IMG/VR virus record: IMGVR_UViG_3300037042_001757
Coordinates: 1-20,284 of that record
DNA from: a virus
Length of the DNA stretch: 20,284 nucleotides
Direction: 5' to 3' (one strand)
The position numbers and the translations under genes were made by a program. Shown piece by piece: positions 4,113 through 18,114 of the stretch. Numbering within the stretch: position 1 is the first letter of the stretch; each line of letters starts with the position of its first letter. The notes below the pieces were generated by a model. The model saw only the letters and a program-made list of their open reading frames with translations, did not search any database and was not told the DNA's origin.

Positions 4113-6392
4113 ATGCACTCAAACGAAGGCAATGCAGAACTAGAGAATCTTCCAGAAAAAGGAGGTGCGCCAAAAAAGCGCATCAAATCATCTGACAACT
4201 TGGTTGCCATAAGCGATAAGTACATAGAGCAGGATGAAGAGGCTTCTTGGTTGCGGTCTCGGGCACAGGCACTGGTCAATGGAGAGGCTCCCTACGATTC
4301 CGAAGAACTGAAAAACAAGGGACTGACCCATGTGGTCAATAGCAACTTTGGCGAAGCCAGTGCCATTATGGAGGCCGCTCTTGCTCCCTACATTGAACTT
4401 CAGAACGGGGTTCCCCGTGTGGCCAACGTCATCTTGGACTCTTACGAGGGGGAATACAGCGAAGACTCCGAAGTCATCTCTGAGGAGTTTGACTGGATGC
4501 TTAAAGAATGGAGCGACTTTCCCTACAACATGCAGCTTCTCTCTCGGGAGTTTGTCGGTGATGGGGTCGGGATTGCCATGTGGCCTGATGAGCGGAGTGT
4601 CTTCTGGGAGCCCTGTGGACTCAAGGACTTCAAGGTGGCCCGTGATACCAAGGTATCTGACAACGCCATTGAGGTGGCTGTAGTCACCCGTAACATGAGT
4701 GTGAGCGAGCTTTACAACTACATCCGAAATCCCGAAATAGCCAAGAAGCTAGGGTGGAATATCAACAGCGTAAAGCAGGCTATCTGGAAGGCTTCGACCA
4801 AGTCCGACCAGTGGAAGAACTACACCAACCACTGGGAAGACTTTGAGCGGGAGATCAAGGAGAACGACCTCTACCAAGGAGAGAGTGCCTACCACAGAAC
4901 CCAGTTAATCTACGGCTACAACCGCGAGTTTGACGGCAAGTTCACCCAGCTTATCGCCTCCAAGGATAGTTCCGATTTCCTCTATGAGCGTTACAGCAAG
5001 TACAACAACGTCAACCAGTGCTTTGTCATCTTTACCTATGGGGTGGGTCAGGGAACCTTTCACACGATTCGGGGTCTGAAGCAGAAGATCTACAACCCGA
5101 TTCAGGTCAGCAACCGGATTCTCTGCCAAGCAGCACAAGCTGCCGTTACCTCTGGTCTAATCCAGCTTCAGGGCGATGCCGAAGCGATCCAAGATTTCCA
5201 ATACATTGAGGTCGGTCCCTACACCTTCATCCCAAGTGGGCTAACCCCGATCCAACTTCAACCTCCCTCCATCGCGACCCAAGGTCTTCCGGTTTACAAC
5301 CTGATGAGCCAAACCCTCCAGAACAACACTGGAAGCTACCGCTCACGGCAAACAAATCCCGACAACCAAGCAAGGTCGGCTACAGAGGTAGTCCAGCAGG
5401 CCCGTCAAGAATCCACCCTGAACGCCGCAGCATTGGAACTCTTTTATACCCCCTACAATAAACTCCTGACCGAACAGTACCGCAGGGCGGTTAACCCCAA
5501 CCTGACAGCAGCAGACAAGGGAGGGGCCTTGGCCCTTGAGTTCCGCCGCCGTTGTGCTCGTCGAGGGGTCAGCATTGAGCGTATGCGTAGCTTCCTTAAG
5601 GTTACCGCCATGAGGGCCATGGGTGACGGGAGTCCGGTAATGACTGAGATGGCCTCCAAGCAACTCATGGAGCTATATTCCCTGATGGACGAGAAGGGTA
5701 AAGAGAACGTCCTTCGTGCAGTTGTTGCTGGTATACCGGGAGTTGGCTACCAAAAAGTTAACATGTTTGTGCCTGAAGGCGAACCCCGCAAGATCATTGA
5801 CTTCGACATTGCCAACCTTGAGAACGGCAACCTCCGTCAGGGCATCCAGCAGTTGGTCCACGATAGCCAGAACCATGCTGTGCATATTGAGGCCCACATC
5901 CCAATGATTGCTGAAATCATTGAGGCCCATCGTCAGCAGCAGATGGCCGACGAACAGGCCATGGCAATCTTGCGTCCTGCTTCAGACCATGTGACCGAAC
6001 ATCTGGTCATGTTCTCCAACAACAGCTTTAGGCAGCAGGAGATCCGCGAACTCCGCCGCCAACTTCAGAACCTCACGGCCTACATCGATGAGCTTGAGCA
6101 GCAGGTGATCAACAGGGCCATGGCCGAACAAACCCAGATGCAGGAGGCCGCGATGGCCCCGCAACAAGGTGAACAGCCCCAGATCGATCCCAAAATGGAA
6201 ATGGAAATGCAAAAAGCACAGCTTAAACTTGCAGAGATGCAGGAGAAGCGGATGATGAACCAAGAAACCCATCAACAGAAGATGGAAACAATCCGGCAAC
6301 AAATGGCTCTCAATGACCTAAAGACCCGTAGTTCTATTCTGGAGAAAACGGCAAGGCCAGCAGGCAGACCCCCTCTGGCAGCGGGAATCTAA
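4113..6392 (+). CDS. Portal protein (P22-like, long form)
   Basis: A 759-residue head-tail connector subunit. Portals form a 12-mer ring at one prohead vertex, through which terminase loads DNA and onto which the tail docks. The length suits P22-like portals (about 700 or more residues). The N-terminal 30 residues are polar and basic. Residues about 60-300 hold the alpha/beta wing-like region with FVGDGVGIAMWPD and SVFWEPCGLKDFKVARD. The middle includes IYNPIQVSNRILCQAAQAA and RSATEVVQQARQESTLNAAA, typical of portal stem/clip helices. The last 130 residues (from about 630) are Gln/Met/Glu-rich heptad-like helices that could form the barrel inside the capsid. It is followed by scaffold and capsid genes, which is the usual head-module order. 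The start is ATG 4113, with no Shine-Dalgarno. Confidence 0.85.
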   Translation: MHSNEGNAELENLPEKGGAPKKRIKSSDNLVAISDKYIEQDEEASWLRSRAQALVNGEAPYDSEELKNKGLTHVVNSNFGEASAIMEAALAPYIELQNGVPRVANVILDSYEGEYSEDSEVISEEFDWMLKEWSDFPYNMQLLSREFVGDGVGIAMWPDERSVFWEPCGLKDFKVARDTKVSDNAIEVAVVTRNMSVSELYNYIRNPEIAKKLGWNINSVKQAIWKASTKSDQWKNYTNHWEDFEREIKENDLYQGESAYHRTQLIYGYNREFDGKFTQLIASKDSSDFLYERYSKYNNVNQCFVIFTYGVGQGTFHTIRGLKQKIYNPIQVSNRILCQAAQAAVTSGLIQLQGDAEAIQDFQYIEVGPYTFIPSGLTPIQLQPPSIATQGLPVYNLMSQTLQNNTGSYRSRQTNPDNQARSATEVVQQARQESTLNAAALELFYTPYNKLLTEQYRRAVNPNLTAADKGGALALEFRRRCARRGVSIERMRSFLKVTAMRAMGDGSPVMTEMASKQLMELYSLMDEKGKENVLRAVVAGIPGVGYQKVNMFVPEGEPRKIIDFDIANLENGNLRQGIQQLVHDSQNHAVHIEAHIPMIAEIIEAHRQQQMADEQAMAILRPASDHVTEHLVMFSNNSFRQQEIRELRRQLQNLTAYIDELEQQVINRAMAEQTQMQEAAMAPQQGEQPQIDPKMEMEMQKAQLKLAEMQEKRMMNQETHQQKMETIRQQMALNDLKTRSSILEKTARPAGRPPLAAGI

Positions 6393-8258: not shown

Positions 8259-9512
8259 ATGTCAGCACAGACTGCTACTACTTGCGAAGCTATCAATGAT
8301 AACTTCGTGCGGGAGTCAGGGCGCGTAGCCCTCGGCACCTATCGTTTGGGTCTCTACAAAGATCCTTATCTCCGTTTTGTTTCCCAGTCGGCATTCCCCG
8401 ACAACATGGGCAAAACGATCACCAACATCATCGCCCAGCGCACCATCGCTACGGGTACTGGATGGGAAAACATTGGCTTTACTGGCGACGAGAACAGTCA
8501 AGACAATGCTTGCTTGGCCCCCGTTAAAAAGGTTGGCTATGCCTTCGACACCAAGACCTTCACCCTCCGTCAGCAGGCGGTTGAGTCGAACTTCATCTGC
8601 TTGGAAGATGTTCGCACCTCGACCTTCCCGATTGACGATGTTAACAACTACATCAAGATCTTGGCCGATAACGTCAACGTCGAGTGGATCAAACGTTATG
8701 ATGACGATTATCTCGCGCATTCGACCAAGTTGAGTGTGGAACCGGGAATTGATAACAGCGGAACCGTTACCTTCAATGGTACCACGGGCCTCGCCACTAT
8801 CGCCGGAACCCCCGCTCCTACGAGTGTTTTGACCCCCGGTGTCCTTCGTCAAATCCATGACAATCTCTATCAGGAGAATGCTGGTGATGACGGCGATGCG
8901 GTTACCGATGACGGTGCCCCTGTGTTCAACGTGTTCGCAGAGCGTGCCACCATTGAGAACCTGATCAAACTTCAACAGGAAGTTCGCGAGGACATCCGCT
9001 GGAGTGATCGCGTGAATGATCTGCTGGGAGCCAACGGTTCCTCGCTGTTGCCCAAAAAGGCATACGGCGGATTCGTGTTCCACAGCCGTCCATTCCCGAA
9101 ACGCTTCAACGACAACGGGTCCGGTGGATTCGTCGAAGTTGCTCCTTACAGCACCATAAATGCTGTTAAGGGCACCAAGGCGATCATCAACCCTGCCTAC
9201 AAGACTGCGAAGTATAGCTCGACGGTTATCTTCCATCCGAAGGCCATGGAGTGGCTCGTCCCTAGCACGAATGTCAAGGTCGGCAAACTGACCTATGATG
9301 CTCAGAACTATCGCGGCGACTTCAAATGGATCAACGAGTATGATCGTAACTGTAACCCTGACAAAAACAGCGGTTACTGGCGTGCGAAGATGGCGTGTGC
9401 GGTGAAGCAGATCGTCCCTACTTGGGGCTACTACATCCTGCACTTGCGTTGCAACCTCGCTGCCGATCTGGTCGCTTGCCCGACTTCAAGCGGATACGGC
9501 TACCTTCAATAA
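8259..9512 (+). CDS. Major capsid protein
   Basis: A 417-residue protein in the capsid slot: after portal and scaffold, with its own long leader, and closed by a strong terminator. Length and composition (Gly, Asn, Asp, aromatic residues) fit a HK97-fold shell subunit. Features visible include an N-terminal helix region (NDNFVRESGRVALGTYRLGL), an extended segment with DNMGKTITNIIAQRT, an internal Gly/Thr-rich stretch at about 165-185 (TFNGTTGLATIAGTP) and a C-terminal domain with YHHL-like strands ending PTSSGYGYLQ. There is no N-terminal prodomain or protease partner. It has several Cys residues (for example CEAINDN, CLAP, CLED, CNPD), more than many capsid proteins, so disulphide or metal cross-links are conceivable. 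The family call rests mostly on context. The long minus-strand frame opposite (8316-9443) is a shadow. Confidence 0.8.
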   Translation: MSAQTATTCEAINDNFVRESGRVALGTYRLGLYKDPYLRFVSQSAFPDNMGKTITNIIAQRTIATGTGWENIGFTGDENSQDNACLAPVKKVGYAFDTKTFTLRQQAVESNFICLEDVRTSTFPIDDVNNYIKILADNVNVEWIKRYDDDYLAHSTKLSVEPGIDNSGTVTFNGTTGLATIAGTPAPTSVLTPGVLRQIHDNLYQENAGDDGDAVTDDGAPVFNVFAERATIENLIKLQQEVREDIRWSDRVNDLLGANGSSLLPKKAYGGFVFHSRPFPKRFNDNGSGGFVEVAPYSTINAVKGTKAIINPAYKTAKYSSTVIFHPKAMEWLVPSTNVKVGKLTYDAQNYRGDFKWINEYDRNCNPDKNSGYWRAKMACAVKQIVPTWGYYILHLRCNLAADLVACPTSSGYGYLQ

Positions 9513-15687: not shown

Positions 15688-15901
15688 AGGAATACTGAAA
15701 TTTGCCCTACCCGAAGAACAACCGGAATTTGAGTTGGCTTGTAAAGCAGGGGATCTTCTTTTTGTTCTTAACGGGTTTGCTAATCATCTTCGTTCTCATC
15801 TTCGCCATTCTACTGATCCCGATTGGGATACAGCTACTGTGGAAAAGCTTTACGAGCTTATTAATCAAATGAAGACAGAGTACTGTCTCCACTTTGAATA
15901 G
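15680..15901 (+). CDS. Small conserved phage protein (73 aa)
   Basis: A 73-residue protein with the layout F-x-LPEEQxEFELA-x-x-A ... LxxxxNHLRSHLRHS ... VEKLYELINQM, which I recognise as a recurrent small phage protein type found near DNA-metabolism genes. Its function is unknown. It is probably a two- or three-helix protein with conserved Pro-Glu-Glu near the N-terminus. It overlaps the acidic gene by eight bases and lies 16 bases before the DUF4406 gene. The family resemblance is from memory of the pattern, not from a search. Confidence 0.6.
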   Translation: MAKGILKFALPEEQPEFELACKAGDLLFVLNGFANHLRSHLRHSTDPDWDTATVEKLYELINQMKTEYCLHFE

Positions 15902-15917
15902 AACCAACACAACAACC

Positions 15918-16526
15918 ATGACCATATACCTGTGCGGTCCCATGACTGGGATCGATGACCTAAACCACCCCGCCTTCTTCAAGGCCGAATCCCGACTCAA
16001 AGAGCAGGGCTATACCGTAATCAATCCCGCCGCAATGGACGAGGAACTGGGCCTAGACCCCCACCAAGGGGTGATGGACCCCGAATTCCTTAAAAAGGCC
16101 GCACAGCGCGATCTGGAGGCCGTAATAGCCTCTGAGGGAATCGTCCTGCTTCCAGAGTGGGAGAAGTCCAAGGGAGCCAAGGCTGAACTGGCAGTGGCTC
16201 AGTGGTTGGGCAAGAAGGTCTACCTCTACCCCTCTATGGTGGAGTACGGTAAGGAGTCGATCTTGGACACGGCCAAACGCCTCACCTCCAGCGATAGGCA
16301 AAAGGACTACGGCCACCCCAAGGACAACTTCCGGCGTATTGCCGATCTTTGGAATATGTATCTTCTCAACCGCCAAAATCCCGAAACAGAAATCTCTATT
16401 GAGGATGTGGCTTGGATGATGGTCTTGCTTAAAATAGCGCGGGATCTCAACAAACCCACAGTAGACAACTTAGTCGATAGCGTGGGGTATATCCGTACCC
16501 TCGCCATGGTCAGAGGCATAGAATAA
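15918..16526 (+). CDS. DUF4406-DUF6378 fusion protein (nucleoside deoxyribosyltransferase-like)
   Basis: A 202-residue fusion. Residues 1-100 are DUF4406-like: MTIYLCGPMTGIDDLNHPAF, then GYTVINPAAMDE, RDLEAVIASEGIVLLPEWEK and SKGAKAELAVAQWLGKKVY. This is the nucleoside 2-deoxyribosyltransferase-like Rossmann fold. Residues about 115-202 match DUF6378: RQKDYGHPKDNFRRIADLWN, EDVAWMMVLLKIARD and DNLVDSVGYIRTLAMV, a helical domain. The two often occur as separate neighbouring phage genes, and here they are in one chain. A part in nucleotide salvage or base exchange is suggested by the first domain, not shown. I start at ATG 15918; a TTG at 15894 would overlap the previous gene. The perfect AATCCCGAAA at 16377 is coding here (Asn-Pro-Glu). 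Confidence 0.75.
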   Translation: MTIYLCGPMTGIDDLNHPAFFKAESRLKEQGYTVINPAAMDEELGLDPHQGVMDPEFLKKAAQRDLEAVIASEGIVLLPEWEKSKGAKAELAVAQWLGKKVYLYPSMVEYGKESILDTAKRLTSSDRQKDYGHPKDNFRRIADLWNMYLLNRQNPETEISIEDVAWMMVLLKIARDLNKPTVDNLVDSVGYIRTLAMVRGIE

Positions 16527-16530
16527 TCTT

Positions 16531-18114
16531 ATGAAGAACCCGCAACAACCCAACAAACGAAGGCTTTTCTTCGACATCGAAACCTCACCCAACGTGGTGT
16601 TGGCTTGGCGCACAGGCTTCAAGCTCTCTATCCCCCATGACAACATACTGGAGGAGAGGGCCATTATCTGCATCTGCTACAAGTGGGAGGGGGACGAGGA
16701 GGTCCATAGCCTTACTTGGGATCGCAAGCAGTGCGACAAGAAGATGCTGCGGGATTTTAGCGCGGTACTCAATTCGGCTGACGAAGCCATAGGACATAAT
16801 TGCGTTGATGTTAATGCAAGAGTTTTGACAAAAGACTTCAAGTGGATTCGGGCTGGTGACCTTAAAAATGGCAATGAATTAATGGGCTTTGATGAAGGGA
16901 TTCCTCCAAATTCCCAAAAAAGGACCGAAGGAAAATGGAACAAAGCGCAATACAAAAAAGAATATAGAACAATAGAAACTGGCGTTGTTTCTGGTTTTCA
17001 AACGAAAATTGCCGAATGCGTAAAAGTTGTTTTTGAAAACGGAGACGAGCTAATAACGACAAAAGATCACTATTGGCTTACGATGCCGCCAGTCTCTAAC
17101 GATCAGTCGTGGGTTGCTTCACAAGATTTGAAAAATAATTACAGGGTTAACAAGTATTTTTCTCCTTGGGAGCAGGATACAGGTTATGAGGCTGGATGGT
17201 TGTCTGGATTCATTTCTGGAGAGGGAACCCTAAAACAATCAGAAAGATCCTTTCAGGTTGATTTTTGCCAAAGAAAAACATCAACACTTGAACAAGCTTT
17301 GGATTATTGCAGAAAACTTGGTTATTCTTTTTCTGAACCAAAATCAAAACATTGTGGGGGACTTGGGCGCGGTGACACTTATTACACGCAATTCCACGGT
17401 GGAAAATTTAAGACCATGGAAATTATTGGGAGACTTGGAATTAAAAGATTTATTGAAAAAGTAGATTATTCAAAACTTGGCGTGTTGAAGGGAAAGAATG
17501 TTCCTAGGGTGAAAATTGTTTCAGTCGAAGATGTCGGAATGAAAGAGGTTGCCGTTTTTCAAACAAGTTGCAAAACGTTTTTTTGCGAGGGCTATCCAAT
17601 GCATAATTGTGACCGCTTTGATTTGAAATGGATTAAGACAAGGTGCCTCTACCACCGAATCCCGATGTATCCCAACTACACAACGCTGGATACCCTCAAG
17701 GTAGCCCGCAACCAATTCCTCTTTAACAGCAACAAGCTGGACTACATCGCCAAGTTCTTGGGCTTTGGGGGTAAAATGGACACCGGAGGGTTCGGCCTAT
17801 GGAAGGCCATCGTCCTAGACAAGTGCAGGGAGAGCCTCCAGAAGATGGTTGATTATTGCAAAATGGATGTGATCCTACTGGAGAGGGTGTACCAAGAACT
17901 CCGCACCTACGCCCCCCACAAGTTCAACTACGCCACTGCCTACGGTGGGGAGGCCCATGACTGCCCCAACTGTGAATCCCTCAATGTCTATGTAAACAAG
18001 ACCAAAACAACCGCTGGCGGTGTAGTTAAGAAGCAGATGCAGTGCAAGGACTGTGGATCTTACTTCACAATCAGCAATCGGAGCTACGAGAAGTATTTGG
18101 CTGAGAAAAGCTAG
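16531..18114 (+). CDS. DEDDy 3'-5' exonuclease with zinc ribbon, interrupted in frame by an intein
   Basis: A 527-residue precursor. Exteins are residues 1-90 and 360-527 and splice to 258 residues. Exo I is FFDIETSP (D15, E17); Exo II is GHN (88-90) joined to CDRFD (360-364); Exo III is YCKMD (Y442, D446), giving a DnaQ-like DEDDy set. A C-terminal zinc ribbon follows with C478/C481 and C505/C508. The protein probably trims or proofreads DNA ends in phage replication or recombination. Residues 91-359 are the intein, described separately; until it is removed, Exo II is split and the enzyme should be inactive. The start is ATG 16531, five bases after the DUF4406 gene, with no close Shine-Dalgarno. 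The stop shares CTAG with the convergent minus-strand gene. Exonuclease class and intein are both well supported; the substrate is not known. Confidence 0.88.
   Translation: MKNPQQPNKRRLFFDIETSPNVVLAWRTGFKLSIPHDNILEERAIICICYKWEGDEEVHSLTWDRKQCDKKMLRDFSAVLNSADEAIGHNCVDVNARVLTKDFKWIRAGDLKNGNELMGFDEGIPPNSQKRTEGKWNKAQYKKEYRTIETGVVSGFQTKIAECVKVVFENGDELITTKDHYWLTMPPVSNDQSWVASQDLKNNYRVNKYFSPWEQDTGYEAGWLSGFISGEGTLKQSERSFQVDFCQRKTSTLEQALDYCRKLGYSFSEPKSKHCGGLGRGDTYYTQFHGGKFKTMEIIGRLGIKRFIEKVDYSKLGVLKGKNVPRVKIVSVEDVGMKEVAVFQTSCKTFFCEGYPMHNCDRFDLKWIKTRCLYHRIPMYPNYTTLDTLKVARNQFLFNSNKLDYIAKFLGFGGKMDTGGFGLWKAIVLDKCRESLQKMVDYCKMDVILLERVYQELRTYAPHKFNYATAYGGEAHDCPNCESLNVYVNKTKTTAGGVVKKQMQCKDCGSYFTISNRSYEKYLAEKS
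16801..17607 (+). mobile_element. Intein with LAGLIDADG homing endonuclease motif inside the exonuclease
   Basis: 807 bases encode 269 residues that remove cleanly from the exonuclease. Block A begins with Cys (C91, CVDVNARVLTKDFKWIRAGD). Block B is GDELITTKDHYWL with the TxxH pair T177/H180. A LAGLIDADG-type motif is GWLSGFISGEG (222-232). The end is TFFCEGYPMHN with the penultimate His and terminal Asn (H358, N359), followed by Cys as +1 extein residue. These are all the splicing residues of a class 1 intein. Only one LAGLIDADG motif is clear; a second may be degenerate near IIGRLGIKRFIEK. Base content drops sharply: line 16861 is 21/60 G+C and line 17881, in the extein, is 36/60. Splicing is strongly expected; endonuclease activity is less certain. 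Confidence 0.9.

Follow-up and report, generated by a model that had tools for sequence, protein, structure and literature searches.

The analysed stretch of DNA, hereafter the window, comprises 20,284 nt from an uncultured phage (IMG/VR record IMGVR_UViG_3300037042_001757) and contains on its plus strand, as do all features described below, an open reading frame of 527 codons at 16531-18114, in which the sequence of a putative exonuclease is interrupted by an insert of 269 codons (16801..17607). The insert begins with the first base of a cysteine codon (Cys1 at 16801), ends with the last base of a terminal asparagine codon (17607) and is free of stops, and its removal leaves a continuous frame of 258 codons. 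By alignment and PolB-exonuclease fold, the N-terminal extein (residues 1-90; 16531..16800) carries Exo I (FFDIET, D15/E17) and the GHN of Exo II, and the C-terminal extein (residues 91-258 and stop; 17608..18114) carries the Cys directly following the insert (+1), the DRFD of Exo II (D95), Exo III (YCKMD, Y173/D177) and a CxxC...CxxC zinc ribbon (C209/C212/C236/C239). The joined extein thus displays D15-I-E17 (Exo I), N90-x3-F-D95 (Exo II) and Y173-x3-D177 (Exo III), which together place it in the DEDDy class, and these motif residues are nearly all invariant in its relatives. It further matches phrog_403 (‘DNA polymerase exonuclease subunit’), and the structural model of an intein-free relative from IMG/VR (L004, 97% identical), which served as a stand-in for the spliced exonuclease whose structure prediction the initial annotation had proposed, adopts a PolB exonuclease fold (Z 17.8, 2.4 Å over 173 residues, 5n2h). 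Sequence and model together mark the 258-residue joined extein as a stand-alone PolB-type DEDDy exonuclease with predicted 3'-5' activity. This is in agreement with the initial annotation, which had described a DEDDy exonuclease with a zinc ribbon, an intein between the N and the xxxFD of Exo II and a joined product of 258 residues, the junction being exact and in frame. In the precursor, Exo I and the Asn of Exo II lie on one side of the insert, and the Asp of Exo II and Exo III on the other. Because this splits Exo II between its Asn and its Asp, an exonuclease that has yet to splice is very probably inactive.

A phrog_403-type exonuclease, gp1 of Flavobacterium phage tooticki6-1, is 53% identical over the whole extein and shares the Exo motifs and the zinc ribbon, but is intein-free, its +1 residue being Gly. 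In the related contigs of 26-54 kb, which are possibly fragments, no PolA or PolIII-alpha was found that could partner the exonuclease; a search for phrog_17 matched only the exonuclease itself. The gene directly upstream (15894-16526) encodes a fusion of DUF4406 (nucleoside deoxyribosyltransferase-like) and DUF6378. The large proteins encoded at 4113-6392 and 8259-9512, in an apparent structural region, matched neither PHROGs nor, by tblastn, any of 50,697 records of isolated phages, and the lineage of the phage therefore has no isolated member in this collection.

The ends of the insert coincide with the splicing blocks of inteins: Cys1 forms block A, and H268-N269 followed by the +1 Cys forms block G, with block B (TTKDH, residues 86-90; TxxH as T87-K-D-H90 at 17059..17070) in between. 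Cys1 and H90 are invariant in the 23 aligned sequences of the family described below. The two halves of a Hint splicing domain, assigned from the structural model and Hint matches, and for the C-terminal half also from the family alignment, occupy 16801..17151 (about residues 1-117, boundary approximate) and 17497..17607 (blocks F and G, terminal MHN). A His is often present in block F of inteins and is missing from that of the insert. The base composition also sets the insert apart, as its GC content is 0.384 compared to a contig mean of 0.491, which makes it approximately the lowest-GC stretch of 807 nt in the contig (the true minimum lies 23 nt off), and GC3 is 0.32 in the insert versus 0.71 in the extein. 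Curated intein models remained below their cut-offs (PF14890, 18.0 of 35.8; TIGR01445 intein_Nterm, 21.6 of 24.5 bits); PF14890 is matched at E ≤ 0.01 by 11 of 23 members of the intein family. As a search of PDB chains with the single intein sequence gave chance matches only, a family profile and fold comparison were needed. The AlphaFold2 model of the insert (mean pLDDT 88) superimposes on the gp41-1 intein (6riz) with a Z score of 19.0 and an rmsd of 1.6 Å over 122 aligned residues, which predicts a Hint fold.

While scanning IMG/VR with the single intein sequence yielded one relative only (IMGVR_UViG_3300032301_000602), a profile scan identified 26 further full-length relatives. The insert aligns end to end with these approximately 26 inserts, each of which ends at its own splice junction in another protein. 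They share its architecture (about 240-270 aa, Hint domain and one LAGLIDADG motif) but are only 23-34% identical to it and reside in other exteins and at other sites, interrupting PolA (family A polymerase) and UDG-PolA fusions at several sites, RecA, a helicase, glycosyltransferases, an amidase and proteins without Pfam match. Two of the polymerase genes (L030, 1-4776; L032, 2059-6222) apparently harbor two different inteins each, one of the single-LAGLIDADG family and another with LAGLIDADG_2 or HNH/NUMOD4 domains. Among isolated phages, tblastn identified full-length relatives at 27-28% identity in the Pham3880 terminase-like protein and in Gordonia phage portal proteins. The Pham3880-g intein of cluster C1 mycobacteriophages (ET08 gp239, ScottMcG gp245) aligns over all 269 residues with about 28% identity and shares Cys1, the VLT.D..W...G..L.GFDE block, the single LAGLIDADG motif and the HN end with the insert, but differs in its terminase-like host protein, Ser instead of Cys at +1 and Asp at LAGLIDADG position 6. 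Splicing of this intein has been demonstrated, and precursor could still be seen (PMC5050341). The portal-protein intein of Gordonia phage Newt (gp8) is 27% identical over the full length and has the same block pattern, differing in its portal extein and in Thr at +1. Without exception, the relatives start with Cys, end with HN, are followed by Cys, Ser or Thr and possess exactly one LAGLIDADG motif, and the catalytic splice-junction residues of the insert are invariant across the family alignment. For profile scanning of genome contigs the 23-sequence intein alignment was too divergent; an alignment of six sequences recovered five weak bacterial or MAG loci.

The central part of the insert (about residues 118-232; 17152..17496, boundary approximate) represents a putative homing endonuclease domain of the LAGLIDADG type, as indicated by a sub-threshold match to PF14528, which is matched by 10 of 23 family members, and by the family profile, which matches the LAGLIDADG enzymes of solved structure I-HjeMI, I-MsoI and I-AniI over this region. 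Its single motif, LSGFISGEG (residues 134-142; 17200..17226), has kept Glu (E141) at position 8, the usual catalytic acidic position. Position 6 is Ser in the insert and Asp in the other family members, and endonuclease activity could therefore be reduced. Most intein endonucleases have two LAGLIDADG motifs per chain, the alternative being one motif in a homodimer. As exactly one motif occurs in all 23 family members, a homodimeric endonuclease is suggested. Elsewhere in the window, at 491-1009, a free-standing protein with HNH_3 and AP2 domains is encoded (Pfam E 8e-13 and 2e-5), which is probably a second, independent homing endonuclease of the same phage.

To compare the extein with its intein-less homologues, IMG/VR was scanned with the joined extein, which returned 18 loci. 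Six of these are intein-free and 96-98% identical in the aligned protein, four over the full length (L003-L006, 96-97%) and two partially (L013 and L016). The full-length relatives span all 258 residues with a clean junction and no insert. The absence of the insert from close relatives, the GC minimum, the position of the ends at splicing blocks, the end-to-end alignment with inserts in other proteins and the predicted Hint fold together show that the insert is neither a chance feature nor an integral domain and strongly support the 269-residue intein that the initial annotation had placed at 16801-17607; we regard an intein of the class 1 type within the exonuclease gene as very likely. The only other carrier found was IMGVR_UViG_3300032301_000602 (L002/L019, 54 kb; hereafter L002), whose intein is 99% identical at the protein level. 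DNA patterns for inteins at the same site with Cys, Ser or Thr at +1 likewise recovered L002 only, the other eight contigs being intein-free, although these patterns require an exact HN-x-D[R/S]FDxKW-type junction and may miss further cases.

The close alleles differ in the residue following the insertion site. The +1 codon (17608..17610) is TGT (Cys) in both intein-bearing alleles, whereas every close intein-free allele has GGA (Gly); accordingly, the former read GHN-C-DRFD and the latter GHN-G-DRFD. GHNCDRFD had initially been taken as the conserved Exo II core, which does not hold, as within this clade the Cys is peculiar to the intein-bearing alleles. Inteins of the class 1 kind need Cys, Ser or Thr at +1 to splice. 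As the close intein-free alleles have Gly at this position, the +1 Cys most likely arrived with the intein. Conversely, a Cys allele may have existed before and been the target of the intein. A tolerance for Cys is indicated by an identical pair of loci (L017/L018; 135-875 and 3124-3864), 51% identical relatives that are intein-free and still read GHNCDRFD, which may have arisen by natural variation or persisted as a scar from an intein since lost; a search for closer relatives of this pair found none. They are, however, the only two Cys alleles among 98 sampled intein-free alleles, the others having Gly (83) or Ser (13), and the GGA codon of the close intein-free alleles is two base changes away from TGT, which renders a pre-existing Cys rather unlikely.

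Seven differences are fixed between intein-bearing and intein-free alleles, four of which lie within 30 nt of the insertion site (at -4, 0, +2 and +26 nt). This clustering is significant when compared to variable sites (p = 0.006), but includes the +1 codon, which is demanded by splicing. As two of the four near-site differences are the +1 codon itself, they provide modest evidence that the flanking differences may represent a co-conversion tract, and with only two intein-bearing copies known, the shared flanking changes rest on a single contrast. Any such tract is short, as differences between the window and L002 resume within some dozens of bases.

Between the window and L002, the intein DNA differs at 11 of 807 sites (98.6% identity) compared to 67 of 774 sites in the extein (91.3% identity; Fisher p = 4e-12), with 87% identity in the region of the upstream gene. 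At synonymous sites, a divergence (dS) of 0.049 in the intein compares with 0.478 in the extein. As the intein is far less diverged than the exonuclease flanking it, the sequences indicate that it moved between the two lineages recently, after their split. The dN/dS of the intein is about 0.10, a rough value based on few changes, which suggests that both the splicing and the endonuclease halves are maintained. Purifying selection is likewise evident in the extein when both carriers are compared.

The initial annotation had proposed that splicing times the nuclease. As a domesticated post-translational switch, the intein would delay the exonuclease until conditions permit splicing; since its position splits the active-site motifs, the precursor probably lacks activity before splicing, conditional splicing has been reported for other inteins, e.g., the mycobacterial DnaB intein (PMC6195587), and the Pham3880-g intein left visible precursor. 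However, phage proteins that are 96-97% identical do without the intein, the very low synonymous divergence indicates recent spread rather than long retention, and the endonuclease domain is under purifying selection, as a homing element needs. Regulation of the nuclease by splicing, although possible, is thus unsupported, as closely related phages are intein-free; recent horizontal spread fits a selfish homing element, and we consider a switch highly unlikely. Even less credible is that the insert has degenerated or lost the ability to splice and either keeps the exonuclease inactive or acts as a structural domain, since the sub-threshold scores of intein family models, the missing block F His and the Ser at LAGLIDADG position 6 are outweighed by the invariant splice-junction residues, the low dN/dS of the intein, a +1 Cys precisely in the insert-carrying alleles and purifying selection on the extein between both carriers.

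With high confidence, we therefore infer a mobile homing intein with a single LAGLIDADG motif in Exo II of the PolB-type exonuclease of an uncultured phage, for which splicing, cleavage and conversion are deduced from the features above. From the 527-aa precursor, the intein (269 aa) would be released through the chemistry of Cys1, His90, Asn269 and the +1 Cys, yielding an exonuclease of 258 aa in which GHN is followed by Cys rather than by the Gly (or Ser) of the ancestor. Once free, the endonuclease would cleave the GHN/G junction in intein-free alleles of co-infecting relatives, and repair off the intein-bearing copy would install the intein and a short flanking tract including the +1 Cys codon. 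Inclusion of this codon would be required, as Gly at +1 could not splice. If the native Gly is indeed unable to support splicing, no homing event could succeed unless the +1 codon, at least, were co-converted, and the Exo II motif would keep its Gly-to-Cys exchange even if splicing were perfect or the intein were later lost, which we consider somewhat more likely than not.

The intein belongs to a known kind of mobile element, and its insertion site is new among the papers searched. Intein-bearing phage exonucleases described in the literature are RecB-like (PMC5050341), and no inteins in the PolB-type exonuclease family were found in the papers searched, which included few subscription papers, InBase lying outside this search. 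With the protein described here, a stand-alone PolB-type exonuclease joins the phage intein hosts and is linked to a broad family of single-LAGLIDADG phage inteins sitting in many unrelated proteins. Judging from the swap from Gly to Cys, inteins may be able to occupy empty sites that lack a splicing nucleophile, and the near-identical alleles with and without the intein allow direct tests of homing, of co-conversion and of the cost that an active-site intein imposes.
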